DNA of 64,000 bases, taken from NCBI GenBank assembly GCA_020852515.1, contig JADZAS010000011.1:62001-126000 (forward strand), in the 5' to 3' direction. The notes under the pieces are model-generated. The model was not told where the DNA came from and made no database searches. It saw only the letters and a list, made by a program, of their open reading frames with translations. The position numbers and the translations under genes were made by a program. Positions 5,367-28,067 of the stretch are shown here, piece by piece (the stretch's first letter is position 1; the number at the start of each line of letters is the position of its first letter). This stretch comes from Phycisphaerales bacterium. Lineage in GTDB: Bacteria > Planctomycetota > Phycisphaerae > Phycisphaerales > UBA5793.

Positions 5367-5375
5367 AGTAGGTTT

Positions 5376-5587
5376 ACCGCGGAGACCGCTGAGAGCGCAG
5401 AGAAGACACTTAGCCGCGAAGAGGCACAAGAGTCGCAAAATGGAGATGCAGAGAACAACGACTGAAAGCGCGGAGTTGAGTTCAGGACCTGATTCCGACC
5501 CATCTCGATTCCGTTTTGTGTCTCTTGTGCCTCTTTGCGGCCATACCGATTCTTGTTTCTCTCTACGCTCTCGGCGCTCTCTGCGGT
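5376..5587. repeat. Long imperfect inverted repeat, GCAGAG family, copy 1
   Basis: The outer left arm at 5376-5402 (accgcggagaccgctgagag and on) is nearly the reverse complement of 5558-5587. A second pair of arms at 5412-5440 (gccgcgaagaggcacaagag) matches the reverse complement of 5513-5542. The centre of about 70 bases is unpaired. The element starts ten bases after the trpE stop and ends 21 bases before the sulfotransferase start. A shorter relative lies at 32454-32533. It could act as a transcript-end hairpin or be a non-autonomous mobile repeat; no open reading frame inside it is credible. Confidence 0.8.
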
Positions 5588-5608
5588 GAAGAGGATCGGA
5601 AAGCAACG

Positions 5609-6970
5609 ATGAAGATCGCGCTGCTGGGGCGACATTTTTCGGGGACCGTCGGCAAAGCGCATCGCGTCGATCTCGATCACCCGTTCATCTGCGAGCGGCT
5701 GGCGCGCAGCGCGGCGGTGCGATTGTGGGTCGACGGCGCGGAAGTTTCGCAGCCCACCGGCTCGCTTGATGAGGTCGTTACACTCGGCGAGGGCCGGTGC
5801 TTCATCGACGGGGCCAAACTGTGGATCTCCATCCCCGGCGATCGCCAGCCGCGGCAGGAGTCGATCGATCTCGTCGTCGATGTGCCGCTCACGACTGATC
5901 GCGACATGCACAGCACGGCGAGGCCGCTGCTCATCCTCGGGCCGCAGCGCTGCGGCAGCACGGCTCTGCAATGGGCGCTCGATCACTGCACGCCCTACAA
6001 AGCCCCGCGCGACCTGCGCGGCTATCTCGACAACACGCTCGAAGGCTTCTACCTCACCCAACTGCTCAAGTCGTTTCTCAACCACCCCCACTACTCGCCC
6101 TTCGGCAGCGATGCGGCGGGGCACTTCTGGGGCACCGGGCTCTTTCAGGATTGCGGCTTGAGCGGCGAGATGCTCGCACGCCTCGCGCAGCACATCGACT
6201 GGGCGTACTCGACGACGAGCGGCACACTGGGGACCTGGACAGACAAGTGCCCGGGATGGGACAGCGTGGCGATCGCGCCGCTGTTTTCCATGCTCTTCCC
6301 GCACGGGCACGTGTTCTTCCTCAGCCGCGACCCGGTCGGCAATGTGCTCTCCATCATGCGGCTGCGCGGCGAGTTGCCGGATGACCTGCCCGAGGAGCGG
6401 CGGCCGGCGGCGGTGGCGCAGGCGTGCGCCGGCTGGACGGTGGCGCACTACCTCTGGCGGCGCTACGTGCGGCCGATCATGCCCCGCGGCGCAGCGACGG
6501 AGATTTCGTTCGCGAAGTTTCGCAGACGCGAACCCGAGGTGCTCGCGGCGATCCAGGCCGCGGCGAATCTGAGCGATGAAGAAATTGAAGCGGTGTCGGC
6601 CGATCTGAATGAGCCGCAGGTGCCCACGCACGCCGTCGAGCGGCAGCGGTTGGACGACTGGGTCGTTCCCGCAATCTGGCACCTCTGCGGCAGCGAAGCA
6701 AAGCGATGGGGATACGAGAAGCCGGAGTCGGCCGAGGTCGCGGCCGATGCGCCGTCGCCGTGGCGCCTGCCGGTGCGCAATGCGTTTCTGCCAACGGTGT
6801 TTCACGCACTCTCGTGGCTGGGATTGACAACTGACGCGGTGAATGCGGCGGCGATGCACTTCGTGCCCGACTGGAAGCCGGTCAGCGAGCCGCAGATGCA
6901 CGCCGAGGCCGGCGCGGGCTCGCTGCTTGCCATCTCGCTGCGAGAGAGAGAGAGTTCAAGACGAGAATGA
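5609..6970 (+). CDS. Sulfotransferase A with N-terminal cluster module
   Basis: This 453-aa protein is a PAPS-dependent sulfotransferase-like enzyme. The 5'-phosphosulfate loop is LILGPQRCGSTAL (about residues 108-120) and the 3'-phosphate motif is FFLSRDPVGNVLS near 235. Residues about 20-90 hold a diverged form of the cluster module (LWVDGAEV, GEGRCFI, LWISIPGDRQPRQ), seen better in the proteins at 8367, 10816, 12324 and 25545. The start chosen is ATG 5609 with GGATCGGA just upstream; a longer frame from 5516 would run through the inverted repeat and is not credible. Its stop overlaps the next gene's ATG (ATGA), so the two sulfotransferases are probably translated together. Likely substrate, by context, is an exported glycan; acceptor unknown. 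Confidence 0.83.
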   Translation: MKIALLGRHFSGTVGKAHRVDLDHPFICERLARSAAVRLWVDGAEVSQPTGSLDEVVTLGEGRCFIDGAKLWISIPGDRQPRQESIDLVVDVPLTTDRDMHSTARPLLILGPQRCGSTALQWALDHCTPYKAPRDLRGYLDNTLEGFYLTQLLKSFLNHPHYSPFGSDAAGHFWGTGLFQDCGLSGEMLARLAQHIDWAYSTTSGTLGTWTDKCPGWDSVAIAPLFSMLFPHGHVFFLSRDPVGNVLSIMRLRGELPDDLPEERRPAAVAQACAGWTVAHYLWRRYVRPIMPRGAATEISFAKFRRREPEVLAAIQAAANLSDEEIEAVSADLNEPQVPTHAVERQRLDDWVVPAIWHLCGSEAKRWGYEKPESAEVAADAPSPWRLPVRNAFLPTVFHALSWLGLTTDAVNAAAMHFVPDWKPVSEPQMHAEAGAGSLLAISLRERESSRRE

Positions 6971-8367
6971 ACGAGACCGGACCCATCCTGCTGACACTGA
7001 CGCCGCGGCACTTTCATAAGAGATTGGGTCACGGGCACGGGGTGCCCCTGCGACATTCGGCAGTGCTCGACCGCATCAATGGTCGATCGAAGATCACTCT
7101 CTGGCTCGATGGACGACCGCTCAACCGGTCTGGCGCCTCGGTTCAGGACGTTGCCGAGCACGGCGACGGCCGCTGCCACCTCAATCTTCCCTACGAAAAC
7201 GAAAGTATTCCGCGCGAGCAGTGGTGCGGCATGCTCTGGATATCGCTGCCGGGGAATTCGGAACCTCGCGAGTACGGCAGAGCGATCGTCGTGGAACTCG
7301 GCGAAGCGCCGCGCGAGTCAGTGTCGGCGGCGGCTGGAGGGCCGCTTCTTATCGCCGGAGCGCAGCGCACTGGAACGACGGCGCTCCTCACCGCGCTCGA
7401 CACGGCGACACCGCTGCGAGCCCCGCAGGACGCGTGCATGCATCGCTGGCACACTCTCGAGGGATTTTTCACGATTCAGAGCGCCCTTCACTGGTTGACA
7501 CATCCATTTGTCTCCGCGCTCGGCGGCGACGGCGAGCAGCGCCGCTTCCGCACGGGGATGTTTGACGACAGTTCGTTCGCCAGCGCCATGCTCGACTCAC
7601 TCGCAGAGCACATCGACCGAAGCGGTCGCATGCTCGCGGGGGGCGCTCCGCGGTGGGTCGAGAAGTGTCCGGGCTGGGAAACTTCGTCAATCGGACCGCT
7701 CTTCGCGGCCCTGTTTCCGCGCGGCCGCGTCATCTACATGACGCGCGATCCAGTGTCGTGCACGATGTCCATTGCACGCCTCGAGGGCTCGCTTCCGCGG
7801 GCGCTGGATAGCGAAGCGGCGTTGCGGTCGATCGTCCGAAACAGCAGCGTCTGGGTGGTGTCGCATCTCATCTGGCGCCGATACGGCCGACCGCGACTGG
7901 GATCGGACCGCATGCTCGAGGTGCCGTTCCATCTCTTCCAGCGCGAGCCGGCGGAAGTAGTGCCGTCGATTGCCCGGCTCCTTCAACTCGATGAGAAACA
8001 AGGCGATGCCCTGCTTGCGGCGCTGGGACACATTCCAACGCCAAGGCACCCGATCCGCGTCGAAGAAATCGATCCGGCTGTGCCGTCGCTTATCCGCCGA
8101 CTGTGCCGCAATGAGGCGGCGCGCTGGGGATACGAGATGGGCGAGTGCGAGCCGGTTAATGCGCCGATGCTCGAGCAGGTCTGCAGCCTCTACCGGGGCC
8201 AATTGTCGCGCATGCTCGATTGGTACCAGTTGCGATCCGATGTGGCGCAGGCATTCGTCGAAGCGAATGTGCAAGGCGCAGCAGATGGTCTTGCACCTTC
8301 CGATGAACCGCCACTGCCCGCGCCCGGGCCGCTGCTGGCGGCCCGGTTGGCTCGTGAGCCGGCGTGA
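6967..8367 (+). CDS. Sulfotransferase B with N-terminal cluster module
   Basis: Paralogue of the preceding gene, 466 aa, starting at the ATG that overlaps its stop. The PAPS loop is LLIAGAQRTGTTAL (about 127-140) and the second motif is VIYMTRDPVSCTMS. Both proteins share WVEKCPGWETSSIGPLF-like and RW.YE blocks. Residues about 25-110 are the module in weakened form: ITLWLDGRPL, HGDGRCHLNL, LWISLPGNSEPRE. Two paralogous enzymes side by side suggest sulfation at two positions or on two sugars of one glycan; this is inference. The next gene begins at or within four bases of its stop. Confidence 0.83.
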   Translation: MNETGPILLTLTPRHFHKRLGHGHGVPLRHSAVLDRINGRSKITLWLDGRPLNRSGASVQDVAEHGDGRCHLNLPYENESIPREQWCGMLWISLPGNSEPREYGRAIVVELGEAPRESVSAAAGGPLLIAGAQRTGTTALLTALDTATPLRAPQDACMHRWHTLEGFFTIQSALHWLTHPFVSALGGDGEQRRFRTGMFDDSSFASAMLDSLAEHIDRSGRMLAGGAPRWVEKCPGWETSSIGPLFAALFPRGRVIYMTRDPVSCTMSIARLEGSLPRALDSEAALRSIVRNSSVWVVSHLIWRRYGRPRLGSDRMLEVPFHLFQREPAEVVPSIARLLQLDEKQGDALLAALGHIPTPRHPIRVEEIDPAVPSLIRRLCRNEAARWGYEMGECEPVNAPMLEQVCSLYRGQLSRMLDWYQLRSDVAQAFVEANVQGAADGLAPSDEPPLPAPGPLLAARLAREPA

Positions 8368-9734
8368 TGCGGGGCCGGCGCGCGGCGGCCGCGACTACGA
8401 TGTTGGCGATGCAGAAACCCGGCCGGGTCATTGTGAACACACCTCTGGCGCGCCTCGTGGCGCTGCTGCTGGCCCTGCTGGCTGCGCGGCAAGGCGCGGC
8501 GCGCCAGGGCGATGCGCCGCCGGGGGCAAACGCCGTCATCATCGAGCCGGGCGACGTGCGGCCGCGCGCGGGGCTGGCGTACACCATCAACCTGCCGCTG
8601 AGCGCCAACGAAGGAGACTACAGCGACGCCCTGCGGCGATCGAGCTGGGTGCTGCTGGAAGATTCCACCGCGCTCGGGCCAGCGCACGGGACGCACAAAG
8701 ACGTCGAAACCCTCGGCCGAGGCCGCTACTCGCACTGGAAGAACGCCCTGATCTTCTCGAGCTCCGACGGCAGCGACCCGCGCACCAACGGCAGGCACTA
8801 CGTGCTCATCAAGACCGCCGACGAGACGGGCCGGCGCGTGCACTTCTGTGCCCCGGGCGCCATGCTCATGGTGCGCCAGGGCGACCGGCTCTGGTGGCCG
8901 GATGGCGAGGCCTATGAGATGTTCGTGCCGCGCTGGGGAGCGCGCCGGCCGGAGGTGAACCCGCAGCGACCTCGCATTGAGGGCTCGATGCTCGTGTTCG
9001 ACGCGCCGGGCGAATACGGCCTGCGTGCGGCGGGCCGGGTGGCGCGCGTGCTCGTGCTCGACGATGACGCCGCAGTGCGGCCCCGGCAGATCGTCGGCTT
9101 CATCGCCGCCAACACCACCGGCGGGCGCGAGGATGAACTCACGGCCGAGGAGAGCGAAGCCAACTGGCCGCTGGTGCTGCGCCACCACTTCGACCGGCTG
9201 TTTCAGAGCGATGCAAGTCTTGACGTCGCGTGCGGCCGTGCGGCGCTGCTGGCCGAACTGCTCTGCCGGGCCGCAGGATTCGAGACGCGCTACTGCGGCT
9301 GGATCGGCGATGACCCGCGCTACGCGGCCCACGTGGGGCTCGAGATCTACAACGCGCAGCGCGGCCAGTGGGAGTACTACGACCCGCACTTCGGCGTCGC
9401 CGCCCGCAACCGCGCTGATGGACTGGGCCTGGCGCTGAGTCTGCAGCGGCTCTACGCCGGACGCGAAGCGGATGCGGTTGCCGTGCTGGTGGACAAGATG
9501 ACACCCGAGGGCCTCGCCGAGCAGTGGGCGTCGTACGGGGCCGCCGTGCAACTGTGGGGCGACCGATCGCGGAGCACCTCGACGGTGCTGCTCATGAATG
9601 ATGCCGTGCCGCCGACGATCGAGCCGGATGCATTTGCCGAGACGGAGTTCCTCTCGGCGTCGCGCGACCTGGCGACGTTTCGCGCCCGGTTCTACGGCCC
9701 CGCGATCGCGGCCGGCGGAGAGGACCAGCGCTGA
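8367..9734 (+). CDS. Transglutaminase-like protein with cluster module, probably exported
   Basis: About 455 aa. A hydrophobic stretch LARLVALLLALLA near residues 27-39 looks like a signal peptide or anchor. Residues about 68-150 carry a full copy of the module (LGRGRYSHW, FSSSDGSDPRTNGRHY). The C-terminal half fits the transglutaminase-like cysteine fold: Cys in LDVACGRAALLAELLCRAAG (about 289), His in AAHVGLEIYN (about 322) and Asp in WEYYDPHFG (about 339) match the Cys-His-Asp triad. The start could be GTG 8364, ATG 8367 (overlapping the previous stop), ATG 8400 or ATG 8409; the last two give a more ordinary signal peptide. Function may be peptide or amide cleavage or cross-linking outside the cytoplasm; no substrate can be named. 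Confidence 0.8.
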   Translation: MRGRRAAAATTMLAMQKPGRVIVNTPLARLVALLLALLAARQGAARQGDAPPGANAVIIEPGDVRPRAGLAYTINLPLSANEGDYSDALRRSSWVLLEDSTALGPAHGTHKDVETLGRGRYSHWKNALIFSSSDGSDPRTNGRHYVLIKTADETGRRVHFCAPGAMLMVRQGDRLWWPDGEAYEMFVPRWGARRPEVNPQRPRIEGSMLVFDAPGEYGLRAAGRVARVLVLDDDAAVRPRQIVGFIAANTTGGREDELTAEESEANWPLVLRHHFDRLFQSDASLDVACGRAALLAELLCRAAGFETRYCGWIGDDPRYAAHVGLEIYNAQRGQWEYYDPHFGVAARNRADGLGLALSLQRLYAGREADAVAVLVDKMTPEGLAEQWASYGAAVQLWGDRSRSTSTVLLMNDAVPPTIEPDAFAETEFLSASRDLATFRARFYGPAIAAGGEDQR

Positions 9735-9772
9735 GCCGCCCCGACCCGGCCGCGGCTAGGATCAGGCCATCA

Positions 9773-10684
9773 ATGACCGCCACCGATGTTTCGAGCCATT
9801 CCGTGCTGTCGTATTGCTTTGACGTGCTCAAGTCGATCGTGCTGCTGCCGCTGACCATCGCGGCCGTATTGCGCGACATTGCGCGCGACGTGCGGCGCTA
9901 CCGGCGGCTGCTGCTGGAGATGACCTGGCGCGAACTGGCCGACCCCTTTGCCGGGTCGTTCCTCGGCGTGACGTGGTCGGTGCTGCATCCGCTGCTGATG
10001 ATGGCGGTGTACGCGACGGTGTTCGCGATTATCTTTCGTGGATCGCCGGAAGCGAATGCGCACGGGTTCGACTTCACCATCCAGATGATCTCGGCGTATC
10101 TGCCGTGGATGGCGATGACCAACGCCGTGCTGGCCGGGTGCAGCGCCGTGCGCAACAAGGCGAACCTGGTCAAGCAGGTGGTCTTTCCGCTCGAGGTGCT
10201 GCCGATCAAGACGGTGCTCGCCAACCTCGTGCCCCAGGTGATCGGCACGATCTTCCTGTTCATCTACAGCCTGATCCGCTTCCACGAGGTGCCGTGGACG
10301 TGGGCGCTGTGGCCGGTGATGTTCGGCCTGGAGGTGCTGCTGCTGTGCGGGCTGGTGATGATGGTCTCGTCGATCGGGGTGTACCTGCGCGACCTCAAGG
10401 ATGTGCTGCAGGTGGCGTTCATGGTGCTCTTCTACGCCACCCCCGTACTCTACACCGAGAAGACGCTGCACCCGGACAACCCGACGGTGCTCAAGGTGAT
10501 CGACGGCCTGCTGACGTACAACCCGATGAGCCTGATCGTCCGGCCGTTCCGCGACATCTGCTTCTTCGGAGAGATCAGATACGGCTGGACCTGGCTGCTC
10601 TATCCAATCGTGGCGGTGCTGCTGCTGGTGATCGGGTACCGCACCTTCCGCAAGCTCAAGCCGCACTTCGGCAACGCGCTGTGA
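9773..10684 (+). CDS. wzm: ABC-2 type polysaccharide export permease
   Basis: This 303-aa protein is the membrane part of an ABC exporter of the Wzm/TagG/KpsM group, which moves lipid-linked polysaccharide across the inner membrane. It has a cytoplasmic N-terminus, the family block LLLEMTWRELADPFAGSFLG leading into WSVLHPLLMMAVYATVFAIIF, and about six hydrophobic segments. The typical GVYLRDLKDVLQVAFMVLFY loop and a conserved YNPMS near the C-terminus are visible. The start is ATG 9773. The matching ATPase is the product of 22598-24145, some 12 kb downstream in the same direction; in most such loci the two genes are adjacent. Confidence 0.93.
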   Translation: MTATDVSSHSVLSYCFDVLKSIVLLPLTIAAVLRDIARDVRRYRRLLLEMTWRELADPFAGSFLGVTWSVLHPLLMMAVYATVFAIIFRGSPEANAHGFDFTIQMISAYLPWMAMTNAVLAGCSAVRNKANLVKQVVFPLEVLPIKTVLANLVPQVIGTIFLFIYSLIRFHEVPWTWALWPVMFGLEVLLLCGLVMMVSSIGVYLRDLKDVLQVAFMVLFYATPVLYTEKTLHPDNPTVLKVIDGLLTYNPMSLIVRPFRDICFFGEIRYGWTWLLYPIVAVLLLVIGYRTFRKLKPHFGNAL

Positions 10685-10815
10685 GGCCTCCTCGCGGGCA
10701 GAGAGGGCCCCGCGCGGCTGATCCCGGCGGAAGCGGCGCTAGTATTAGCTGAATCCTGCCATCGCGGCCGAGGCCGCGCCGGGCCCGCGGCCCAACGATC
10801 CCCGGAGCATTGAAA

Positions 10816-12327
10816 ATGGCCTTTGCCGTCTCCCTTCCTGTGTTCGGCACCAGACCGCAGCAGCCGCTGCGCGTCGAGGCGGCGCAGAAAGAGTCCGGCC
10901 CGGCGATCCGGTCGATGCCCATCGACGCCGCCATGATCCGCCACGCCGGCGGCCACTGCTACAACGTCGATCTGCCGCTCAGCGCATTCGGCCCGGGCGA
11001 GGTCCCGGCCGGGGAGGTGCCCGGCTCGGTCGTGGAAAATGGCCGGCTGCTCGGCCCACCGGCCCAGTTGCATGATCTCATCCGCCTGCGCGGCGGCGGC
11101 CGTTACAGCCTGTGGAACTCGCAGACCAACAACGCCGTCACGCTGTTCTTCTCGAGCAGCGACAACACCGACCCGCGCAGCAACGGCCGGACCTACGGCG
11201 TCATCAATCAGCCCCTCTCGTTCGCCAACGACTGGAACCACTGGATGGCGCGGGGCTGGAAGAACCACTCGCGCGGGGCGTACTTCCTGCGGCGCGGCGG
11301 CGATCGCATCGCCCCGCCGCTCTACGCCAGCCTCGGCATCACCGATATCTGCAATCTCAAGTGCGGCATCTGCGGCTCGCAGAACATGCTCACGCCCGTC
11401 AACCGGCGGCACATGGATATCGGCATCTTCCGCAAGGTCGCCGACACGCTCTTTCCGCTGCTCGTCACCGTCGAACTCAACAGTCGCGGCGAACCCATGA
11501 TCCACCCGCAGTTCACCGAGATGCAGGAGATCATGCTCGACTACGACATCTTCACCCGCTACCAGACCAACGGCACGCAGTTCGTCGCGCGCAAGTTGGC
11601 GCTGCTGGCCAAGACGCGCGGCGACGTGTCCATCTCCATCGACGCCACGGGTGACCTGTTCGAGTACGCCCGGACCGGCGCCAAGTGGGAGCAGGTGGAC
11701 CAGGGAACGCGCAACCTGATGAAGGTCCGCGACCCGCAGCGACTCGGAGTCGGGCTGTATCCAACCCTCACTGCCAAGACCATCGAAGGCGCTGCGGCAC
11801 TGGTCGACTGGGCCGTGGAAATCGGCGTCGATCGCATCGACTTCCATGTCTACGAACCGATCGAAGCGGGAGTCGAGCGGGCGCCGTCGCAGCAGCAGCT
11901 CGATGCGCTCAAGCAGTACGCTTCGCGCATCGATGGCAAACGCCCGATCCAGATCGCCGTCGAGTTCGAGATCGTCAAGCCGGGGCAGTTGCCGCCCGTC
12001 GATCGGCCGCTGCAGATGCGTTACGAGAACATTCCACGGCCGCTGGGCGCGGCGTCGGCGCATCCGGAGTACACGTGCATGGCGCCGATGCAGAACGTCG
12101 AGATCGACCTCGATGGCTGCGTGTGCGTCTGCTGCCGCACGCAGGATCGAAAACTGGGCAACGCGATGAGCGTGGAGGCGTTCGCCGACTGCTGGTTCGG
12201 CGGCGAGTACGAGGCGATCCGCGCTTCGCTGCGCCGCGACAGCCTCACGCCCCCGATCATCGACACCTGCCGCGGCTGCGTGAAGCACTACACGGCGGGC
12301 AGCGGGATTGTGGAGTTTGGATCGTGA
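10816..12327 (+). CDS. Radical SAM/SPASM enzyme fused to cluster module
   Basis: 503 aa. Residues about 46-130 are a clear copy of the module (GGGRYSLW, FFSSSDNTDPRSNGRTY). A radical SAM core follows, with the cluster-binding CNLKCGIC (C179, C183, C186 in a CxxxCxxC spacing), ELNSRGEPMIHP and SISIDATGDLFEY. The C-terminus has cysteine groups in EYTCMAPMQNVEIDLDG, VCVCCRTQDRKLGN and IDTCRGCVKHY, as in SPASM domains that hold extra iron-sulfur clusters. The start is ATG 10816, with GGAG eight bases upstream; an upstream TTG at 10810 is less likely. Its stop overlaps the next GTG. Reaction unknown; similar enzymes act on sugars or peptides. Confidence 0.86.
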   Translation: MAFAVSLPVFGTRPQQPLRVEAAQKESGPAIRSMPIDAAMIRHAGGHCYNVDLPLSAFGPGEVPAGEVPGSVVENGRLLGPPAQLHDLIRLRGGGRYSLWNSQTNNAVTLFFSSSDNTDPRSNGRTYGVINQPLSFANDWNHWMARGWKNHSRGAYFLRRGGDRIAPPLYASLGITDICNLKCGICGSQNMLTPVNRRHMDIGIFRKVADTLFPLLVTVELNSRGEPMIHPQFTEMQEIMLDYDIFTRYQTNGTQFVARKLALLAKTRGDVSISIDATGDLFEYARTGAKWEQVDQGTRNLMKVRDPQRLGVGLYPTLTAKTIEGAAALVDWAVEIGVDRIDFHVYEPIEAGVERAPSQQQLDALKQYASRIDGKRPIQIAVEFEIVKPGQLPPVDRPLQMRYENIPRPLGAASAHPEYTCMAPMQNVEIDLDGCVCVCCRTQDRKLGNAMSVEAFADCWFGGEYEAIRASLRRDSLTPPIIDTCRGCVKHYTAGSGIVEFGS

Positions 12328-12791
12328 GCAGCGCTTCGGCCACCATCTCAGAACCCGTCGACGGCGCGGCACAGCCCGTCGAGGCGGCGCGACCTGGGTT
12401 CGTGTATTACATCATCGCCGCGGCGGGATGCACGGCGTACAGCATCTGCCAGCTCGCCGCCGGACGCATGGATCCTCAGGTCAATGCCGGCAAGATGGTG
12501 CGCGGGATCTTCAGGCGGCATGTGCGCGGCCGGCTCGAACCGATCCATCATGAGACCGGGCACTGCTACACGTGTTCGGTCCCCAAGGGATTGGTGTCGG
12601 ATGCCGAAGCCGTGTCGCGACTGATCATCTACGAAGACGGCGTGCCCATCGGCCCGGCCCACGCTTCGCACAACGACGTTCGGGCGCACGGCGGCGGGCG
12701 GTATTCGCACTGGAGCGGCTGGCTGTACTTCTCGACGCCGGACAACAGCGATCCGCGAAGTAACGGGCGGCTGTACACATACAGAGACTGA
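12324..12791 (+). CDS. Small membrane-anchored protein consisting mainly of the cluster module
   Basis: 155 aa, starting at GTG 12324, which overlaps the stop of the radical SAM gene (GTGA). A short Pro/Ala-rich head is followed by one hydrophobic segment (FVYYIIAAAGCTAYSICQLA, about 26-45). Residues about 78-155 are the module and nothing else: HCYTC, IIYEDGVPIGPAH, GGGRYSHW, LYFSTPDNSDPRSNGRLY. The protein ends four residues after the last motif, so the module can stand alone. The anchored form suggests that the module works at the membrane, perhaps binding the glycan or docking the larger module-bearing enzymes; that is inference. The longer frame starting at 11685 overlaps the radical SAM gene and is not real upstream of 12324. 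Confidence 0.8.
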   Translation: MSSASATISEPVDGAAQPVEAARPGFVYYIIAAAGCTAYSICQLAAGRMDPQVNAGKMVRGIFRRHVRGRLEPIHHETGHCYTCSVPKGLVSDAEAVSRLIIYEDGVPIGPAHASHNDVRAHGGGRYSHWSGWLYFSTPDNSDPRSNGRLYTYRD

Positions 12792-12839: not shown

Positions 12840-14717
12840 ATGTGCGGCATCGCGGGATGTGTTGATTTGAACGGGCGCCTCGGACCGCAGCGCCTGCGAG
12901 CGCTGGTCGAGGCGATGAACCAGACGATGGTGCATCGCGGGCCCGACGACGCGGGGGTGTGGGTGGACCCGACCGGCCGCTGCGCGCTGGCCCAGCGGCG
13001 GCTGTCGATCGTCGATCTCTCCCCGCTCGGGCATCAGCCGATGGTCGATGACACCGGCCAGATCGGCCTGACGTTCAACGGCGAGATCTACAACTTCCGC
13101 GAACTGCGGCGGCGCCTGGAATCGCAGGGCCGCCGGTTCAGAAGCCAGTGCGATGCCGAGGTGCTTGTGCACCTGCTCGCCGAGCAGCATGAAGACCGGC
13201 TCGATGCGCTGCGCGGGATGTACGCACTCGCAATCTGGAACGCCCGGCAGCGTCGGCTCATGCTCGCGCGCGATCCCTTGGGCAAGAAGCCGCTCTACAT
13301 CGCGCGCGGCCGGGGGTGGTTCGCGTTCGCCTCAGAACTGCGCGCTCTGGAAGTCATAGACGATCTGGACCGGACCGTGAGCCCTGAAGCGCTCGCGGAC
13401 TACCTGCTGCTGCAGTACTTTCACGCCCCGCGCACCATCTATCGCGGCGTCGAGAAACTCGAGCCCGGCTGCTGGATGCTGCTCGATGATCAGGGGCGCG
13501 AGCGCTCCGGCCGGCACTTCTGCTTCGACGCCGGCTCCGGCGAACCCGGCGTGCAACTTGCCGGCCGCTATGAAGATCGCGTTGAGCAGCTCGATGCGCT
13601 GCTCACCCAGGCCGTGCAGCGCCGGCTCATGTCCGATGTGCCGCTGGGCGCATTTCTATCGGGCGGGATCGACTCGGCGCTGGTGGTGAGTCGCATGCGC
13701 CGCCTTGGCGTGCACACAAAGACCTACTCCGTCGGCTTTGCCGATTCGCCTGATTCCGAACACGTGCAGGCGCGCGAGATCGCCGCGCATCTCGGCTGCG
13801 AGCATCATGACATCGTGCTCAAGCCCGATGCGATCGAACTGGCGCCGATGATCGCGGCGAGTCTGGATGAACCCAACGGCGATTCGAGTTGCCTGCCGAC
13901 ATACTTGCTCAGCGAGTTCACCAGGCGCTATGTGACGGTCGCTCTTTCGGGAGACGGCGGCGATGAGATGTTCGGCGGCTACGGCCGGTACTTCGACACG
14001 CTCGCCGACGTCGCCGGGCGAGGCGGCGCGAAGGCATCCGATCTCTACCTCGGCCCGCGGCTGACGATCTTTCAGCCGCCCGATCTCGTGCGGTTTCTGG
14101 GCGAGGTTCCCGCCGCGACGCGGGCCGGCATCGACGCGTGGTCGGCAGACCTCGACCGGGCAGATCGGCCGCTGATCCACCGCATGCGCAATATGGATGT
14201 GCAAACGTACCTGCCCGGGGCGGTGCTGGCGAAGGTCGATCGGATGAGCATGCGGCACTCGCTGGAGGTGCGCTGCCCGCTTCTCGATTTCGACGTGGCC
14301 CGATTCGCGGCGGCGCTGGGTGAGGACGATCTGGTGACCGAGGCGCCGGGCGGCTGGAGCGGCAAGCGGATTCTCAAGGACCTGCTCACGCGCGAATTGC
14401 CGGCCGAGTGGGTGCACCGCCGCAAGAAAGGCTTCGGCCTGCCGTCGAACTTCTGGGATGGCCCGGCGCTGCGGACCTTTGCCCACGAGGTACTGGCCGG
14501 GCCGGATACGTGCCTGGCCGACTGGCTGGACCACGGCCAACTGAAGGCGTGGCTGATGGAGCAGGAGAATCCGCAGTGCTTCTCGATCTACCGCCTCTGG
14601 CCGGTTCTGATGCTTGAACTGTGGCTTCGGGGCGCGCGGGAGGGGCGAGGCCCGGCTCCTGAGCCGCTGGTGGCGGCGGGCGCGCGGCGCGGGGCCGCGA
14701 CGGCTGCGGGCTCCTGA
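12840..14717 (+). CDS. asnB: Asparagine synthase (glutamine-hydrolysing) family amidotransferase
   Basis: 625 aa. The N-terminus MCGIAGCVDL leaves Cys2 as the glutaminase nucleophile after removal of Met; HRGPDDAG and FNGEIYNF belong to the same domain. The synthase domain has the pyrophosphate loop AFLSGGIDSALV (about 268-279) and LSGDGGDEMFGGYGRY. Such enzymes either make asparagine or transfer amide nitrogen to other carboxylates. In a glycan cluster a role in amidating a uronic acid is possible, as for several asnB paralogues in O-antigen loci, but the sequence alone cannot decide. The 48-base gap to the previous gene and same strand place it in the cluster operon. Confidence 0.92.
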   Translation: MCGIAGCVDLNGRLGPQRLRALVEAMNQTMVHRGPDDAGVWVDPTGRCALAQRRLSIVDLSPLGHQPMVDDTGQIGLTFNGEIYNFRELRRRLESQGRRFRSQCDAEVLVHLLAEQHEDRLDALRGMYALAIWNARQRRLMLARDPLGKKPLYIARGRGWFAFASELRALEVIDDLDRTVSPEALADYLLLQYFHAPRTIYRGVEKLEPGCWMLLDDQGRERSGRHFCFDAGSGEPGVQLAGRYEDRVEQLDALLTQAVQRRLMSDVPLGAFLSGGIDSALVVSRMRRLGVHTKTYSVGFADSPDSEHVQAREIAAHLGCEHHDIVLKPDAIELAPMIAASLDEPNGDSSCLPTYLLSEFTRRYVTVALSGDGGDEMFGGYGRYFDTLADVAGRGGAKASDLYLGPRLTIFQPPDLVRFLGEVPAATRAGIDAWSADLDRADRPLIHRMRNMDVQTYLPGAVLAKVDRMSMRHSLEVRCPLLDFDVARFAAALGEDDLVTEAPGGWSGKRILKDLLTRELPAEWVHRRKKGFGLPSNFWDGPALRTFAHEVLAGPDTCLADWLDHGQLKAWLMEQENPQCFSIYRLWPVLMLELWLRGAREGRGPAPEPLVAAGARRGAATAAGS

Positions 14718-14819: not shown

Positions 14820-16940
14820 ATGCCTGCTCGGCTAGACAATGCCGCAGCGGCTCGGAGCGTGATCAGTCGGGCGGAGCAATTCGTCGCGCGCTGGCCAGGC
14901 GGCTACGGGCGAACGCTGTGGCAACGTGTCGCCATCATCCAGGACGAACCGGCCGACCTCGCACTCGGCCTCTGGTTTGCCTGCGCGGGCGCCCAGGTGC
15001 AGTTGTGCTGCCCCGACGCCTCGCCCTGGGTGCGGGAGCGCGATGACGGCCTGATGCCGATCCTGCTCGACGAAATCGCCCGCCGCGAGCCGCGCCTGCT
15101 CACGCAGCCGCTCGAAGGCCTGCAGCACAACAATTACCACCGGCGCTGGGGATTTGCGTATCTGCAGGGACGCGACGCCGAACTCGCCGAGCAGTTGACC
15201 GGCCCGGTCGAGGTCGTGCTCTTTGACGGCCTGGATCGGCTGTCGGGCGACCCGCGGGAAATGTTGAAGCGAATCCATGAGCGGACGCAGTGGAGTTCAT
15301 CAATCGAGATCCTCCCGCGGACCGGCGAGAGCGATATTGACGCCAGACTCGACGCCATCCGGCAGGCGGCCCTTGAGGTCGGCTTCGGCTGCACGGGTGT
15401 GGATGGCGAGAGGGGTGCGGGACTGAGCCTGGTCCGCCTCGGCTCGCCGATGTCGGATCATCCGGTGCTGGACGATCCGACCATCATGGCCCACTGCTTT
15501 GCGCGCCTCGATGTCGCCGCGGCGCTGGCGAAGAACCGCACCATCCTCGACGCCGGCGGCTGGGCGGGCCTGGGAGCCGAGCGCTACCTGAAAGCCGGCG
15601 CCAAGCGCGTGGTCAATCTCGACATCTCCACCGAAGCGCTCGAACTCGGACGGCAGCGGCTGGGCGACGATGATCGCGTCGAATTCGTCCAGTGGGATTT
15701 GAACCAGTCGCCCCTGCCGTTCGAGGAAGCTTCGTTCGACCTCGTCGTCTGCCTCGAGGCGCTCGAGCACATTACGCAGCAGCGGCAGGCGGTGGCGGAG
15801 TTTGAGCGCGTGCTCAAACCCGGCGGGCTGCTGCTGGTGTCGGTGCCGGATCAGGATTGCGAAGAAACCTGGGCGCGACTGAACCAGCACGACAACGCTT
15901 TTCACCTGCACGTGCCGACGCGTGGCGAATTCGAGGCGTTGCTGGCGCGCTTCGAGTCCATCCGCTGGCTGCGGCAGGCCGATGTCACCGGTTCGATCGT
16001 GCTGGAAGATTCCGACGCCGCCCCGACGAACGGGCGCTTCGAGATCGTGCCGCAGTGGAGCGCTCGGCAGGCGCAGCCGCAGGTGATCATGGCGCTGTGC
16101 GCCAAGCAGGCCGGCGCATCGCGCAAGGCCCGGCGCGCGCCCAGGGTCCCCGCGTCGGACCTGCGCGTCTATGGGAGCCAGAGCGATCGCATTGTGCAGA
16201 TGCGCATCGACGAGGCAACGCTCGACGCCTCGGTCCGCAAAGAGCGACTGGAATGGTGGTCGAGGGCCAACGCGCTGGAGGCGAAACTCCGCGGCGTTAC
16301 CGCCGATCTGGAAGCGGCTCGCAGCGAGACGCGGCAGTGGCGCGATCGCGTGCAGACGGATGAGAAGGTCGCCGCCCTCGAGGCGCGATTCGACGCCACG
16401 CACAAGGCGATCGAGTCGATCGCCGCCGAACTGGCGCAGTCGCGGGCCCAGCGCGAGCAGGAGAGCCGGCGCTGGCAGAGCGAGATCCACCACCACGCCA
16501 ACGTGCTCAACGAAGCCCAGCGCCAGCGCTTTCAGGCGAGCACCGAACTCGAAAAAGTCCAGCGCCAGGCGAATGAACAGTCAGCGCAGGTGGCGCGGCT
16601 CACCAGCGAACTGGCCGCAGCCGCGGCGCGCAATGTGGAACTCGCGGCCCAACTGGAGGCAGCTCGCGAGTCGGCCCGCAAGGAGCTGGCCCAGGAGCGG
16701 GCGCGGCGCGAGGCCGATGCGGCGACGCATGCCGAACTGGCCGCCGCCGTCAAAGCGCTGACGACCCGGCTCGACGATGACCGGCGCACGCTGCTTCAAC
16801 GGGTCGAAGCGCTGCTGGCGCAATCGCTCGAAGTTGTGGACCGCCGGTGCCTCACCGTCGAAGGAAAGGTCTACGATCTGCAGGACGATCTGGATCGCCC
16901 TGCCGTGAGTCCCCACCGCAACGGGAGTCCCTCCTCGTGA
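14820..16940 (+). CDS. SAM methyltransferase with long C-terminal coiled coil
   Basis: 706 aa from ATG 14820 (AAGGA seven bases upstream; an in-frame start at 14751 lacks one). Residues 1-235 are an unrecognised N-terminal region. A class I methyltransferase domain occupies about 238-380: TILDAGGWAGLGAERYLKAG, VVNLDIS, FVQWDLNQSPLPFEEASFDL and CLEALEHI. Residues about 470-690 are strongly helical and rich in Glu, Arg, Gln and Ala, as in a coiled coil. A methyltransferase joined to a coiled coil beside an ABC exporter recalls WbdD, which caps and measures O-antigen chains in E. coli O9a; no kinase domain is evident here. The stop overlaps the next GTG. Confidence 0.85.
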   Translation: MPARLDNAAAARSVISRAEQFVARWPGGYGRTLWQRVAIIQDEPADLALGLWFACAGAQVQLCCPDASPWVRERDDGLMPILLDEIARREPRLLTQPLEGLQHNNYHRRWGFAYLQGRDAELAEQLTGPVEVVLFDGLDRLSGDPREMLKRIHERTQWSSSIEILPRTGESDIDARLDAIRQAALEVGFGCTGVDGERGAGLSLVRLGSPMSDHPVLDDPTIMAHCFARLDVAAALAKNRTILDAGGWAGLGAERYLKAGAKRVVNLDISTEALELGRQRLGDDDRVEFVQWDLNQSPLPFEEASFDLVVCLEALEHITQQRQAVAEFERVLKPGGLLLVSVPDQDCEETWARLNQHDNAFHLHVPTRGEFEALLARFESIRWLRQADVTGSIVLEDSDAAPTNGRFEIVPQWSARQAQPQVIMALCAKQAGASRKARRAPRVPASDLRVYGSQSDRIVQMRIDEATLDASVRKERLEWWSRANALEAKLRGVTADLEAARSETRQWRDRVQTDEKVAALEARFDATHKAIESIAAELAQSRAQREQESRRWQSEIHHHANVLNEAQRQRFQASTELEKVQRQANEQSAQVARLTSELAAAAARNVELAAQLEAARESARKELAQERARREADAATHAELAAAVKALTTRLDDDRRTLLQRVEALLAQSLEVVDRRCLTVEGKVYDLQDDLDRPAVSPHRNGSPSS

Positions 16941-18967
16941 AGTCCCCCACCTTGGCGACCGGCGCTGCCAGCCGGCTCGTTCAGAATGAGTCCATTCCCG
17001 CTGAGCCGGGCGCGACGATCGACCTCGATGCGCTGGCCGCATCGGTGCGGCAATGGCACGATGAAGGGGGCGTGGCGGTTGCCTGCGGTCCGCTCGACGC
17101 CGGACCGTGGCTCGACTTATTCAACGCATTCGTCCTGGCGCAGGTCGCCGCGTGCGGGGCGCGGCAGATCCGCCATGATGCGCCGCTGTGGGTCCTGCAC
17201 TCCGACGGACCGATCCCGCAACTGAATCGAGCAGTCGCCGTGCCGACGGGCGACTGTCTTGCGGTGATCCCCACATCGCGACAGAACATTACGGCTCGCG
17301 CGATGATGTGGCTCCGCCGCGCCGGCATCCGGCGGTTGTGGCTGCTCACCGATCGCGGCTGGTCTCTCGAAGATTCATCGGAGGTGCTCGCAGACCTTCT
17401 GGCGCGGCGGCGCATCAAGCCGCTGCTGCGGCGCCTTGCGCCGGGGTTGCTCGTGGACAGCGCCGCCATCGGCCGCGGGCTGGGCCGCTGGCTTTCGCAA
17501 CGGGCACACGGGGCCGAACCGCGCGAGGCGCAACTGATCCAGCCGCTGGCCACGTCGGCCGGCCGCGACGCGGAAGTGATCTGGCGCGAAGCGATTGACG
17601 CGGACAACGCGACGTTTGAACCGCCGCGGCGCTCCGGCGGGCCGCTGCGCGTCGTGCAATACACCGGCTGCCTCTATTCGGGCGGCGCCGAGCGGCAGTT
17701 GTGCAACACCGCCATCGGCCTGCACCAGCGCGGCCACGTCTGCACGGTGCGCACGCAGCATGATCTGGATGATGAACACGGCCACTATCTGCCGCTGCTG
17801 GCGCAGCACCGCATCGACGCCGGCCGGGCCGGGCGCGGGCGGCAGGTGAACTCCGAGGCGCTGGCCAAGGTGCGGTGGGATCTTGTGGCGGTTGCGCCGC
17901 AAGCCATCCGCTCGTACGTGGCGAATCTCGCGATGGAACTGGCGGCAGATCCGCCGGACGTGCTCCACGCGTGGCTCGATCATCCGAACGTGATCGCGGC
18001 CCTGGCGGGCGTTGCGGCAGGCGTGCCGTGTATCCTGCTCAGCACGCGCAATTACAACCCGACGCACTTTCCGCGCTTCTACCTGCCGTTTGTCGATTGG
18101 TACCGCGTGGTCGGGTCGAGCCGGCGCGTGCATTGGCTGGCCAACTCGCACCGCGGGGCGGCCAGTTACGCCGAGTATGTCGGCATCGAAGAGTCGCGCT
18201 TTCACATCGTCTTCAACGGCCTCTTTCGAGACCACTTCGACCGGCCGACGCCGGCGCAGCGGCGCCAGGCGCGGCAGCGGCTGGGCCTGCCGGCCGAGGC
18301 CCCGGTGGTCGCGGTGGTCAATCGACTCGACGAAGAAAAGCAGCCCGAACTCATGCTCAAAGTCATCACGCTCCTGCGCGAGCGGCTGCCCAACGTCCGC
18401 GTCATCGTCGCCGGGAGCGGCCCGCTGGAAGGGCGCGTGCGCGAGATCATCGCGCGGCGGAACCTCGAGCAGACCGTCACCCTGCTCGGGCGGGTGAGCG
18501 ATGTGGTCGGAATCATGAGCGCGGCCGATGTGCTGCTGCTCACCAGCCGCTATGAAGGATGCCCCAATGTCGCTCTTGAAGCGCAGCACGTCGGCGTGCC
18601 GGTCGTCGCGACGGATGCAGGCGGCACCTCCGACGCCGTCTCGCACGGCGTGACGGGCTACATCTGCGGTGTGGATGACGTGGCTGCGCTGGTCATCGGC
18701 CTGCAGCGCCTGCTCGCCAGCAGCGCGCTGCGCGAGCAGTTCGGCGTGGCGGCACAGGAATACGTGGATGCCTGCTTCAATCTCGATCTGATGGTGGATC
18801 TGACCTGCTGTGTCTACGAGCGAGCCTTGAGCGGCATGGAGCGCGGAGGCCGAGTCGAGACGCCGCGGCCGCGGCGCCAGGCGCCGGCCGCGACGCCCGC
18901 CGCATTCGAAGATGAGAAGTCGGCGCCGACGGTGCAGACCATCCGGCCGGCCGCCGTACGAACCTGA
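16937..18967 (+). CDS. GT4-family glycosyltransferase with extra N-terminal domain
   Basis: 676 aa, starting at GTG 16937, which overlaps the preceding TGA. The C-terminal two thirds are a GT-B fold retaining glycosyltransferase of family GT4. The N-lobe begins RVVQYTGCLYSGGAERQLCN near 238, and the donor lobe starts at APVVAVVNRLDEEKQPE near 455. ADVLLLTSRYEGCPNVALE near 532 holds the E-x7-E nucleotide-sugar motif, followed by GVPVVATDAGGTSDAV. The first ~230 residues are not recognised. It probably adds a sugar to the cluster's glycan at the cytoplasmic face. It is the only clear glycosyltransferase in the cluster, so other sugars must be added by enzymes encoded elsewhere. Confidence 0.88.
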   Translation: MKSPTLATGAASRLVQNESIPAEPGATIDLDALAASVRQWHDEGGVAVACGPLDAGPWLDLFNAFVLAQVAACGARQIRHDAPLWVLHSDGPIPQLNRAVAVPTGDCLAVIPTSRQNITARAMMWLRRAGIRRLWLLTDRGWSLEDSSEVLADLLARRRIKPLLRRLAPGLLVDSAAIGRGLGRWLSQRAHGAEPREAQLIQPLATSAGRDAEVIWREAIDADNATFEPPRRSGGPLRVVQYTGCLYSGGAERQLCNTAIGLHQRGHVCTVRTQHDLDDEHGHYLPLLAQHRIDAGRAGRGRQVNSEALAKVRWDLVAVAPQAIRSYVANLAMELAADPPDVLHAWLDHPNVIAALAGVAAGVPCILLSTRNYNPTHFPRFYLPFVDWYRVVGSSRRVHWLANSHRGAASYAEYVGIEESRFHIVFNGLFRDHFDRPTPAQRRQARQRLGLPAEAPVVAVVNRLDEEKQPELMLKVITLLRERLPNVRVIVAGSGPLEGRVREIIARRNLEQTVTLLGRVSDVVGIMSAADVLLLTSRYEGCPNVALEAQHVGVPVVATDAGGTSDAVSHGVTGYICGVDDVAALVIGLQRLLASSALREQFGVAAQEYVDACFNLDLMVDLTCCVYERALSGMERGGRVETPRPRRQAPAATPAAFEDEKSAPTVQTIRPAAVRT

Positions 18968-18988
18968 ATGCAATCGAAGGATGAGTTG

Positions 18989-21900
18989 ATGTCACAAACC
19001 GCCCCGCGCCTCTCTGGTCAACCTGTGCAGGTCGAAGCGCCGCTCAACGAAGCGGTGCTCGCCGAGGTGCGCTTCGCGCTGGACAACGGCTACGAGTACG
19101 CCAAGACCGTGGCGAACCACCTCGCGCGGCGGATGCATCCGCACCCTGACCTGACGAACCTGGCGATCGCGGAGCTGGGCACGCCGAATCGCTTTGGCCC
19201 GATGCTGGTGTGCCGCGCCTTTGGCGCCAGTGTCGCCGCGATCAACACGCACTTCGTGCCTTGGAACGATGAGGCGCCGGCGTTTCTGCAGGCGCTGGCG
19301 CAAACGGGCCGCGAAGAGTATCCCGAAGCTGACTGGTCCTGGATCGACGAAGTCATCGAAGCCGGTGCCTACGACGGCGCCGGCCTGAATCTGCACCAGG
19401 TTGCGAGCCTCTCCGGCCCGCTGGCGGTCGATGACGCTTCGTTCGACTGCATCGTCAGCAACGCGATTCTCAGCCAGGTCGATCTGCCGGCTCTGATGCG
19501 CGAGCTGGGCCGCATCACGCGGCCGAGCGGCTTTGGCATACACCAGGTCGATTTCCGAGACACCGCTGATTACAGCCGGCCGCTCGAGTTCCTCACCCTC
19601 AGCGAACAGGAGATCGATGCGCAGCGGCAGGCGGGGCGCTGGTCGCGCGGCAACCGGCTGCGGCCGGTCGAAATGCAGCAGGTCTTCCGCAGCATCGGCT
19701 TTCGCGTGGAGCATTTCGGACCCAACATGTTCGCCGACGAGGCGTATCTCAAGTCTCTGCGGCCGCGGCTTGCGCCGCGCTACGCACAACTGACCGACGA
19801 AGACCTCCGGCCCATCAGCGGCCGCTTCTACCTCCGCGCCATCACCGACGCCCAGGTGCGCGAAGACGTGGACTATGCGATTCGAATCGCGCTCGAGTAC
19901 GTCGAACTCATCAGCCGCGAACTTGGGCGCGACGCAGCGGCCATGCCGCTGGCGGATCTGACACTCCTTGAATTCGGTCCGGGGCGGCACTTCGGCACGC
20001 CACTGCTGCTGCACTGCTACGGTGCGAGAGTTGCCGTGCTCGACAAGTACCTCGCGGACTGGGATGAGGTCTACCATCCGCGCTTCTATCGGTTCCTCCG
20101 CGAAGCGCTCGACGAACGGCTGCCGCAGCGCGACTGGTCCGCGGTCGATCGCATCATCGCCGCGGCGGATCACCTCCCCGACATCATCGAACAGGACCGC
20201 ACCGACCTCGCGCACCCGCCCAGCGGCTTCCCTGACGCGTCCTTTGACGTGATCGTGTCCAACGCGGTACTCGAACACGTCGGCGACGTGCCGCAGACGG
20301 CGGCGGAGATGGCCCGGCTCACGAGGCCCGGCGGCATCAACATCCACCAGGTCGATTTCCGCGATCATCGCGATTTCACCCGGCCGCTCGAATTCCTGAC
20401 CATGCCCGACGCGGCTTACCAGAAGCTCTTCGACGAGACGATGAACGGCAACGGCAATCGCGTGCGGCCGCACGCCATGGGCGATGACTTCAGAGCCGTC
20501 GGTTTTGATGTGCTTCGCTTCGACGCCAACATCTGGGCCGAGCCCGGGCACATCGCGGCCGTGCGGCCGCGCCTCCAGTCGCAGTTTGCTGCGCTCAGCG
20601 ACGAGACGCTCGCGGTGGTGAGCGGCCGGTTCTTTCTCCGAAGGCAGGGCGCGCCCATGAATCGCAGCGCGCAGAAGAAGTACGCCGAAACGGATCTCCA
20701 AGAAGACCGCTGGGCCGTCCCCGGCGCCATCGACGAGCATGTGCGCTACGCCATCGTCAACGGCGTCTTCTACGCCTCGGCGATCGCGCGGCAGTTCGGG
20801 CGCGGCGTACTCGCGGGCGCACCGGCCGAGGCGCCAAAGCCCTACGGCGTGCTCTCCGATCTGGGCGGACTGAGTATCCTCGAACTCGGGCCGGGGCCGA
20901 ACTTCGGCTGCATGCTCATCTGCAAAGCGTGCGGCGCGGAGGTCGCGGTGTTCGACAAGTACCTCGCCCAGTGGGATGAGAAATACCACCCGAAGCTCTA
21001 CCGCGCGCTGCTCGAGGCCTGCGAGGCGAGCTTCCCCTATGCCGACTGGTCAGCGCTGCGGCGCATCATCGAACTCGGCCGGCATGACGAGGCAATCATC
21101 CGCAGCGCCTCGGGCGACCTCGCCGAGCCACCCAGCGCCTACGGCGACGGCGCCTTCGACGCGATCGTCTCCAACGCCGTGCTCGAACACATCGGCGATA
21201 CAAACAAGATGGCCGGTGAACTGTCGCGACTGACGCGCGATGGCGGCGTGGGCATTCACCAGGTCGACTTTCGCGACCACGAAAAGCAGAACGAGCCGCT
21301 GACCTTCCTCACCGTGCCTGAGGACGAGTTCGCACAGCGATTCATCAAGTCCCGCAACAGCCAGGGCAACCGCGTGCGGGCTCACGAACTGGCCGACGAC
21401 TTCCGCCAGGCGGGCTTCGCGGTGGAAGCAGTCGAGGCGAACCTGTTCGCCGCCTCCGAACACATCGCCGCGATGCGGCCGCAGCTCATCGAACGCTTCG
21501 CTGCGATGACCGATGAGCAGTTGATGGTGGTCAGCGCACGCCTGTTCGTGCGCAAGCCCGAGGCGGAGGTGGAAGAGCCGGACTCCATCGGCCGCGTTTT
21601 CGCCCAGCCCCGCGCCGATGACGTCGCCCACGCGCGCGATGACGAAGCCGAATTCACCGAGTGCATCAACGACCAGATCGGCTATTGCCTGCGAAATGCG
21701 ATCGACTACGCCTACTGCATCGGCGAGCACTTCGGCCGGTTGACCGGCGGCATCCCCGATTTCACGAAGGTGCGGGTGCTCGAGAACATTCCCGATCTCT
21801 CCGGCCTGAGCGTGCTCGAACTCGGCCCGGGACGCAACTTTGGCAGCATGCTTATCTGCCAGGCGCTGGGCGCGCGCGTCGCCGTGCTCGACAAGTACCT

Positions 21901-27952: not shown

Positions 27953-27981
27953 TTGACAAGTGCATCCGCATCCATCATTGT
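27953..27981 (+). promoter_or_regulatory. Candidate housekeeping promoter for the beta-helix gene
   Basis: A perfect TTGACA at 27953-27958 is followed after 17 bases by CATTGT, a weak -10 element, about 87 bases before the ATG at 28068. The -35 box is exact and the spacing is right, but the -10 matches only partly. Confidence 0.35.
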
Positions 27982-28067
27982 GTACGGATGGATTCTCGGT
28001 CCGGATAGCACATCCGGCGAGGCACACCGCAAGGCCGGGCACAGCGGCCACGACAGGAGGCACTCCA

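Follow-up and report, generated by a model that had tools for sequence, protein, structure and literature searches.

The locus described here raises the question of what a radical SAM enzyme may be doing among genes for a surface polysaccharide, and on what substrate it may act. The locus lies between 5.5 and 27.5 kb of the window, by which we mean the whole 64,000-nucleotide stretch of a Phycisphaerales contig that was analysed. A preliminary description of this DNA had claimed a radical SAM enzyme with a CxxxCxxC motif at 10816-12327, its fusion to a shared module, and a polysaccharide locus around it, and our analysis bore out all three claims. The answer that we favour, with confidence a little above even, is that the gene encodes a twitch-type radical SAM enzyme predicted to edit the surface polysaccharide that this locus makes and exports.

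The radical SAM gene and its auxiliary cluster domain

The features of the enzyme are listed below, with residue numbers counted from the TTG at 10810:

10816..12327, +, predicted enzyme with module, radical SAM and twitch (SPASM-like) parts, in this order; could also start at TTG 10810
10951..11199, +, N-terminal module without a Pfam model (iterated profile; AlphaFold2 model)
11350..11373, +, CxxxCxxC (C181, C185, C188), predicted ligands of the SAM-binding cluster (motif and conservation)
12076..12279, +, putative twitch/SPASM-like auxiliary cluster domain (Pfam; C423, C441, C487 and C490 in 10/10 orthologues)

According to the ORF listing, the reading frame is open from TTG 10810 or ATG 10816 through 12327, and ATG 10816 is the start common to the same-genus orthologues. 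The CxxxCxxC motif and the Radical_SAM Pfam model PF04055, which scores above its cut-off (4.2e-7, 30.7 bits, cut-off 29.5, residues 177-309), place the protein by sequence in the radical SAM superfamily; C181, C185 and C188 are kept in 10/10 orthologues and in 21/21 distant rows. Four further genomes of the genus have orthologues with 78-96% identity. Measured against these four, dN/dS is 0.07-0.20 over the full gene, with 0.03-0.13 in the catalytic core, values that indicate a real gene under purifying selection. The AlphaFold2 model of the full-length protein, built from 49 rows, has a mean pLDDT of 80.4; the module blocks lie at 80-97, and within the radical SAM part most blocks exceed 78.

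We then considered the auxiliary domain, which the preliminary description had called SPASM, with further cluster cysteines. The SPASM model PF13186 matches residues 423-490 (2.2e-5, 25.1 bits, cut-off 21.5). Nine cysteines lie outside the CxxxCxxC motif, four of which (C423, C441, C487 and C490) are kept in 10/10 orthologues, while C50, C437, C439 and C461 are lineage-specific. C442 is kept in 9/10 orthologues, being absent from an unfused homologue (L165), and is also present in 20/21 distant relatives; it is therefore no special mark of the window enzyme. As defined in passages of PMC6231123, a SPASM domain has seven cysteines (CX9-15GX4C-gap-CX2CX5CX3C-gap-C), and a twitch domain is a truncated form with one cluster. 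The first half of the seven-cysteine motif is present in the protein, the full motif is not matched, and the second half, CX2CX5CX3C, is missing in 31/31 rows of orthologues and distant relatives combined. What the protein carries is the twitch pattern, four cysteines arranged as CX9-15GX4C followed by CX2C, in 10/10 orthologues. Because the four invariant cysteines are kept and CX2CX5CX3C is absent, the domain is by sequence a twitch with one auxiliary cluster expected, and a SPASM domain with two auxiliary clusters was set aside because of the cysteine pattern. The SPASM label of the preliminary description is a loose one, as the motif belongs to a twitch domain.

The best NCBIfam model for the enzyme is NF033640 (twitch domain-containing radical SAM), at 86 bits and below its cut-off of 170; its strongest match falls within the radical SAM part, and the window enzyme has its twitch at the C-terminus. 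Two other module-bearing radical SAM proteins (from loci L061 and L034), which have an N-terminal twitch-like stretch, likewise fall below this cut-off. Passages of the same source (PMC6231123) caution that sequence clustering is no guide to function in the SPASM/twitch subfamily.

The polysaccharide locus and its shared module

The remaining genes of the locus are the following:

5612..6970, +, sulfotransferase-like protein (below the Pfam cut-off) with a diverged module (5651-5857); start uncertain, TTG 5516 possible
6967..8367, +, putative sulfotransferase with a diverged module (7027-7284) (Pfam, module profile)
8364..9734, +, probably exported transglutaminase-like protein with module (8571-8807); Transglut_core 19.1 bits (cut-off 23), export judged by eye
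9773..10684, +, predicted ABC-2 permease of polysaccharide export (Wzm-like); PF01061 40.9 bits (cut-off 26.9)
12324..12791, +, short protein carrying the module (12555-12782) behind a hydrophobic N-terminal stretch; 4-base overlap with the radical SAM stop
12840..14717, +, AsnB-type glutamine amidotransferase; TIGR03108 440 bits (below its cut-off of 816.9), TIGR01536 427 bits (above its cut-off of 267.1)
14823..16940, +, putative methyltransferase, its C-terminal part long and coiled-coil-like; start uncertain
16937..18967, +, GT4 glycosyltransferase (Pfam, above cut-off); start uncertain
18968..22570, +, four methyltransferase-like repeats in tandem, 1200 aa (Pfam)
22598..24145, +, predicted ABC ATPase with a Wzt_C domain (Wzt-like); PF00005, Wzt_C 34.4 bits (cut-off 30.4)
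24188..25561, +, TylF-type methyltransferase (Pfam)
25545..27497, -, multi-TM protein with module (27126-27344); runs convergently to the operon and shares 17 bases with its last gene

With Wzm, Wzt and GT4 proteins all above their cut-offs, this region reads as an ABC-transporter-dependent polysaccharide locus, a reading with which the Wzt_C domain of the ATPase, two sulfotransferase-like proteins and a WbpS-like AsnB are consistent. Gaps within the operon measure at most 131 bases. Among the window ORFs scanned with Pfam, we found neither nucleotide-sugar genes nor a sulfatase. Two beta-helix proteins with Chlamydia PMP-type repeats are encoded at 27960-30260 and 30608-32443 (+). In the alphaproteobacterial loci described below, single-copy, module-bearing homologues are found in place of the four-repeat methyltransferase-like protein at 18968-22570.

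An iterated profile places the module, about 80 residues long, at residues ~48-130 of the radical SAM enzyme (90.4 and 84.7 bits in two profile searches), with a consensus of the type E.G..Y...L......D......S.L.L.EDG..LGPAH..H.DIR..G.GRYSHW...LYFS.SDNSDPRTNGR.Y, in which H, W, D and N residues are nearly invariant. The same profile identifies it in five further window ORFs: the two sulfotransferase-like proteins (60.6 and 68.7 bits), the transglutaminase-like protein, the short membrane protein and the multi-TM protein. Its carriers in the window are both cytoplasmic-looking (the radical SAM enzyme and the two sulfotransferases) and exported-looking or membrane proteins. Modelled alone, the module is predicted at a pLDDT of 96.8 to be a small, mostly beta-strand fold with one short helix. 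Searches with 13 module copies gave a best Pfam match of only E 0.19, a profile search of the PDB a best E of 1.5, and Foldseek no match at E 0.001. By VIA structure comparison the best match was the glycoside hydrolase BT_1002 (Z 6.3, below 8; rmsd 3.0, 76 aligned), with Shr HID2 at Z 5.3 (rmsd 3.0, 74 aligned); these weak fold matches, which offer no clear solved structure, were not used. None of the four approaches (Pfam, PDB profile, Foldseek, VIA) gave the module a clear match to a known carbohydrate-binding family, and four short peptide strings typical of it did not occur in open-licence literature text.

A pattern scan over 84,980 species genomes yielded 190 confirmed module stretches, the best 80 of which correspond to 77 loci in records titled Planctomycetota, Armatimonadetes, Alphaproteobacteria, Pedobacter and related Bacteroidota, Verrucomicrobiota, Chloroflexi and others. 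There were 118 module ORFs, or 88 after removal of L062, L064, L065, near-duplicates and ORFs longer than 1300 aa; a residue cap removed 10 of the 88, and the remaining 78 were scanned with Pfam. Among the first 25 of the 46 partner families found on these 78 proteins, the sugar-related ones were glycosyltransferase (6), pectate lyase (6), PcRGLX-type lyase (5), sulfatase (2), sulfotransferase (2) and GtrII (2), alongside radical SAM (6), methyltransferase (5) and transglutaminase (5). Some partners, such as PKD, PhyH-like and B12-type radical SAM, are not glycan-active. By sequence, the module is unnamed in the libraries searched and recurs on predicted enzymes for the synthesis, decoration or cleavage of sugar polymers.

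Radical SAM proteins carry the module in more than one layout. In L061 and L034 an N-terminal twitch-like stretch is followed by the module and then the radical SAM part. A third arrangement, recognised by eye in an uncultured Magnetospirillum (L119, 813-2453), has the module at the C-terminal end of a B12-type radical SAM protein. L061 itself, from Planctomycetota bacterium DHS20C15, encodes at 4471-10141 a sulfatase, a PhyH-like protein and the twitch-like/module/radical SAM protein, all three module-bearing, and this trio adjoins homologues of the window Wzm, Wzt, AsnB, GT4 and methyltransferase.

The enzyme clade and the genes that accompany it

To place the enzyme among its relatives we used a tree of 43 core-profile matches, from which duplicates and matches below 60 bits had been removed. 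Eight module-fused rows and the unfused L165 form one clade, with support of 100/100 and a long stem (1.72), that spans Planctomycetota and Alphaproteobacteria. The fused label changes twice on this tree, most simply by one gain and one loss. Core-profile scores are 568-629 bits for the full-length fused proteins, 387 for L165 and at most 127 for all others. Every sampled clade member except one has one to four module copies, with up to four in alphaproteobacterial members.

Clade members are rare. In the large genome searches, which scored no more than the top 3 or 5 candidates in each genome, they occurred in 3/392 sampled genomes of the phylum (by core-score gap) and in 5/61 relatives, in both cases within the window's own genus. 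Only 1/385 genomes of the class of the Azospirillum genome had one, namely that genome itself, as did 4/82 genomes of its family, one of them being L165. A search of plasmids for orthologues returned distant matches, none of which covered 80% of the query; a Solidesulfovibrio plasmid carries modules on an SGNH hydrolase, with an annotated radical SAM gene and asnB within 15 kb. One record titled Vicinamibacteraceae (L064, WYBR01000128.1) holds a radical SAM gene matching that of a member of the planctomycete genus (G393) and is probably a mislabelled bin. Nearly identical radical SAM loci (L085/L171 and L173) come from a genome titled Asticcacaulis and from G877 in the Azospirillum family sample, suggesting either transfer or a misbinned contig. 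Near four alphaproteobacterial radical SAM loci we noted by eye proteins with a DTDTGL-type, phage-fibre-like stretch in common (L166, 2-790; L169, 1291-2316; L171, 17533-18279; L174, 378-1400).

Six clade loci from other genomes were compared with the window: two of the Azospirillum family (G422 and G828), that of Asticcacaulis, the nearly identical G877, that of Magnetospirillum, and G848. All six contain a homologue of the window GT4, and all six encode a module protein, including G848, whose radical SAM enzyme has no module. An AsnB homologue with 45-49% identity is present in five; the sixth is the Magnetospirillum locus, whose contig stops about 210 bases past the radical SAM ORF and which holds a homologue of the window ABC permease. 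In the Azospirillum loci, UDP-sugar dehydrogenase, nucleotide-sugar dehydratase-like and DegT-type genes lack the module, and a GT61 gene carries it. In the clade loci examined, four Pfam-identified nucleotide-sugar genes are without the module, whereas GT4, GT61, methyltransferases and the radical SAM enzyme bear it; this points to the polymer as the probable target.

The preliminary description also proposed that the fusion hints at the substrate class. Indirect support comes from the many glycan-active enzymes that carry the module elsewhere, and from the orthologues of two phyla, which retain both it and a neighbouring GT4, with AsnB in 5/6 other loci; that the enzyme acts on the exported glycan itself we infer.

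We asked whether AsnB is a private partner of the enzyme. An AsnB homologue is found on 29 of the 77 module loci that represent the best 80 of 190 stretches. As PF00733 has 59 matches in ~82 Mb (17 genomes picked from AsnB-positive loci, a choice that biases the estimate upward if anything), about one among 77 loci would be expected by chance. AsnB occurs on 7/8 radical SAM clade loci against 22/69 other module loci with the window's own genus included (Fisher p 0.0038), and on 3/4 against 22/69 with it left out (Fisher p 0.11). AsnB accompanies the module in general, not the radical SAM enzyme in particular, and its presence on 22/69 other module loci weakens the idea of a private pair. In Pedobacter loci (L083, 7800-9176; L090; L131; others), module-bearing pectate-lyase-like proteins lie near an AsnB gene, and three Pedobacter genomes have PF00733 only once, at the module locus.

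In passages of PMC7468200, the AsnB-type protein WbpS is described as needed for a uronamide sugar in Porphyromonas gingivalis, with related AsnBs matching TIGR03108. The window resembles such loci in that TIGR03108 is the top-scoring NCBIfam family for its AsnB; it differs in that this score is below the cut-off, and those passages mention no radical SAM enzyme for WbpS.

Candidate substrates and rival explanations

By structure comparison, the catalytic part of the enzyme is nearest to the peptide modifiers SkfB (Z 23.8, rmsd 3.1, 280 aligned), SuiB (Z 23.5, 4.3, 307) and anSME (Z 22.4, rmsd 3.6, 288 aligned), with lower scores for the small-molecule enzymes BlsE (Z 20.5, rmsd 3.6, 272), DesII (Z 20.0, 3.7, 278) and BtrN (Z 17.0, 3.1, 222). 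As these named enzymes all fall within Z 17-24, a choice between peptide and sugar substrates from structure was dropped. SkfB, SuiB and CteB, which are RRE-containing RiPP maturases, share with the window enzyme an additional N-terminal domain, a radical SAM core and an auxiliary-cluster domain, and are its nearest folds; their N-terminal domain is an RRE, however, where the window enzyme has a strand-rich module and no precursor peptide was found in the operon. BtrN and HygY likewise combine a radical SAM core with a four-cysteine auxiliary domain and offer a precedent for sugar-like substrates, HygY reportedly acting on a sugar. BtrN is described in part of PMC9012708 as a twitch radical SAM dehydrogenase that oxidises a cyclitol, and HygY is a twitch epimerase according to a title cited in PMC10991966. 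Both differ from the window enzyme in that their substrates are small aminocyclitols or aminoglycosides, and the passages of these sources describe no such module for them.

A combination of radical SAM, transglutaminase-like and AsnB-like proteins with an ABC transporter bears a superficial likeness, in its gene kinds, to a lasso- or sactipeptide-like cluster, and SkfB, SuiB, anSME and CteB are the closest folds. Even so, we regard a RiPP or protein maturase as quite improbable. Pfam gave no RRE or PqqD domain at E up to 1, every RiPP-maturase model listed scored far under its cut-off, and the AsnB reached 166 bits on the lasso cyclase model (cut-off 525) against 427 on the general AsnB model (cut-off 267). 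The search for a precursor gene covered the operon, where gaps do not exceed 131 bases, and no small ORF in the gap upstream of the radical SAM gene is conserved across five genomes. The neighbours, moreover, are a glycosyltransferase, Wzm, Wzt and sulfotransferases. These tests found no peptide partner, and with no RRE, no conserved precursor-sized ORF and no maturase model above cut-off, a RiPP or lasso cluster was rejected as the main reading. Maturation of another pathway enzyme, as anSME performs for sulfatases, is suggested by the place of anSME among the closest folds and by the module-bearing sulfatase near the different module-radical SAM protein of L061. It is nevertheless highly improbable: the Pfam scan of the window ORFs detected no sulfatase, and anSME, a SPASM enzyme, has two auxiliary clusters (passages of PMC6231123), whereas the seven-cysteine motif of the window enzyme is incomplete.

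The window does contain two confirmed flagellin genes (47188-48657 and 49048-50517, both -), 44% identical to each other, which could direct attention to a glycoprotein glycan, for example on flagellin. We consider this the least credible of the readings, as the genes lie ~20 kb away, past DNA polymerase III, a GTPase and others, and the locus includes an ABC polysaccharide exporter of its own. More serious, though still rather unlikely, is an action on a nucleotide sugar, a lipid-linked sugar or another small glycan precursor, with the module merely docking the enzyme to the assembly machinery. Known twitch enzymes acting on sugars or cyclitols take small molecules (BtrN, in part of PMC9012708), and the GT4 of several clade loci is also module-bearing, such that a shared scaffold could be what the module binds. 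Against this, the module also occurs on probably exported proteins (the transglutaminase-like protein and 12324-12791) and on secreted-looking lyases, a better fit to polymer binding than to docking on cytoplasmic machinery, and the four nucleotide-sugar genes of the clade loci lack it.

We therefore return to the editing of the polysaccharide itself. As the module is found on enzymes of synthesis, decoration and degradation alike, binding to the polymer is the best explanation of its distribution. SAM and electron donors reside in the cytoplasm, where chains are also assembled in ABC-exporter systems, and the enzyme would for this reason be tethered to the chain before export. In the mechanism that we envisage, the N-terminal module would hold the enzyme to the glycan chain, or to its lipid-linked form, before the chain leaves the cytoplasm, and the 5'-deoxyadenosyl radical would abstract hydrogen from one of the carbons in a sugar residue. 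By analogy with known enzymes, the reaction may then be an oxidation, if the auxiliary cluster accepts the electron (as proposed for BtrN), or an inversion, if quenching of the radical takes place on the opposite face (as in the epimerases NeoN and HygY). Export of the modified chain would follow through Wzm/Wzt, and the exported-looking module proteins would handle the same polymer outside. Several observations weigh against this reading: the nearest folds are peptide modifiers, some module partners do not act on glycans, the module has no clear match among carbohydrate-binding families, AsnB accompanies module loci at large, the window ORFs scanned contain no nucleotide-sugar gene, and C442 is missing from L165.

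We advance tentatively, and with less confidence than the editing role as such, the idea that this amounts to a new principle in polysaccharide biosynthesis. Sugar polymers that are already assembled would be edited by radical chemistry in the cytoplasm, and an unnamed module, common to those proteins of the locus that handle the polymer, would recognise the glycan and guide the enzyme. Its role would correspond, for glycans, to that of the RRE in directing radical SAM enzymes to RiPP precursors. The passages of open-licence literature found on radical SAM enzymes and polysaccharides contained no report of such an enzyme acting on a polysaccharide. If the proposal is correct, radical chemistry reaches whole polysaccharide chains and permits late modifications beyond those of ordinary nucleotide-sugar enzymes, and the module becomes a label for finding the enzymes of one glycan system, from synthesis through export to degradation, across many phyla. 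It also provides a testable rule, namely that the carriers of the module tell which steps act on the polymer. As to the identity of that polymer, the WbpS-like AsnB and the fusion of the module to pectate and rhamnogalacturonan lyases hint, speculatively, at a uronic-acid or uronamide polymer.
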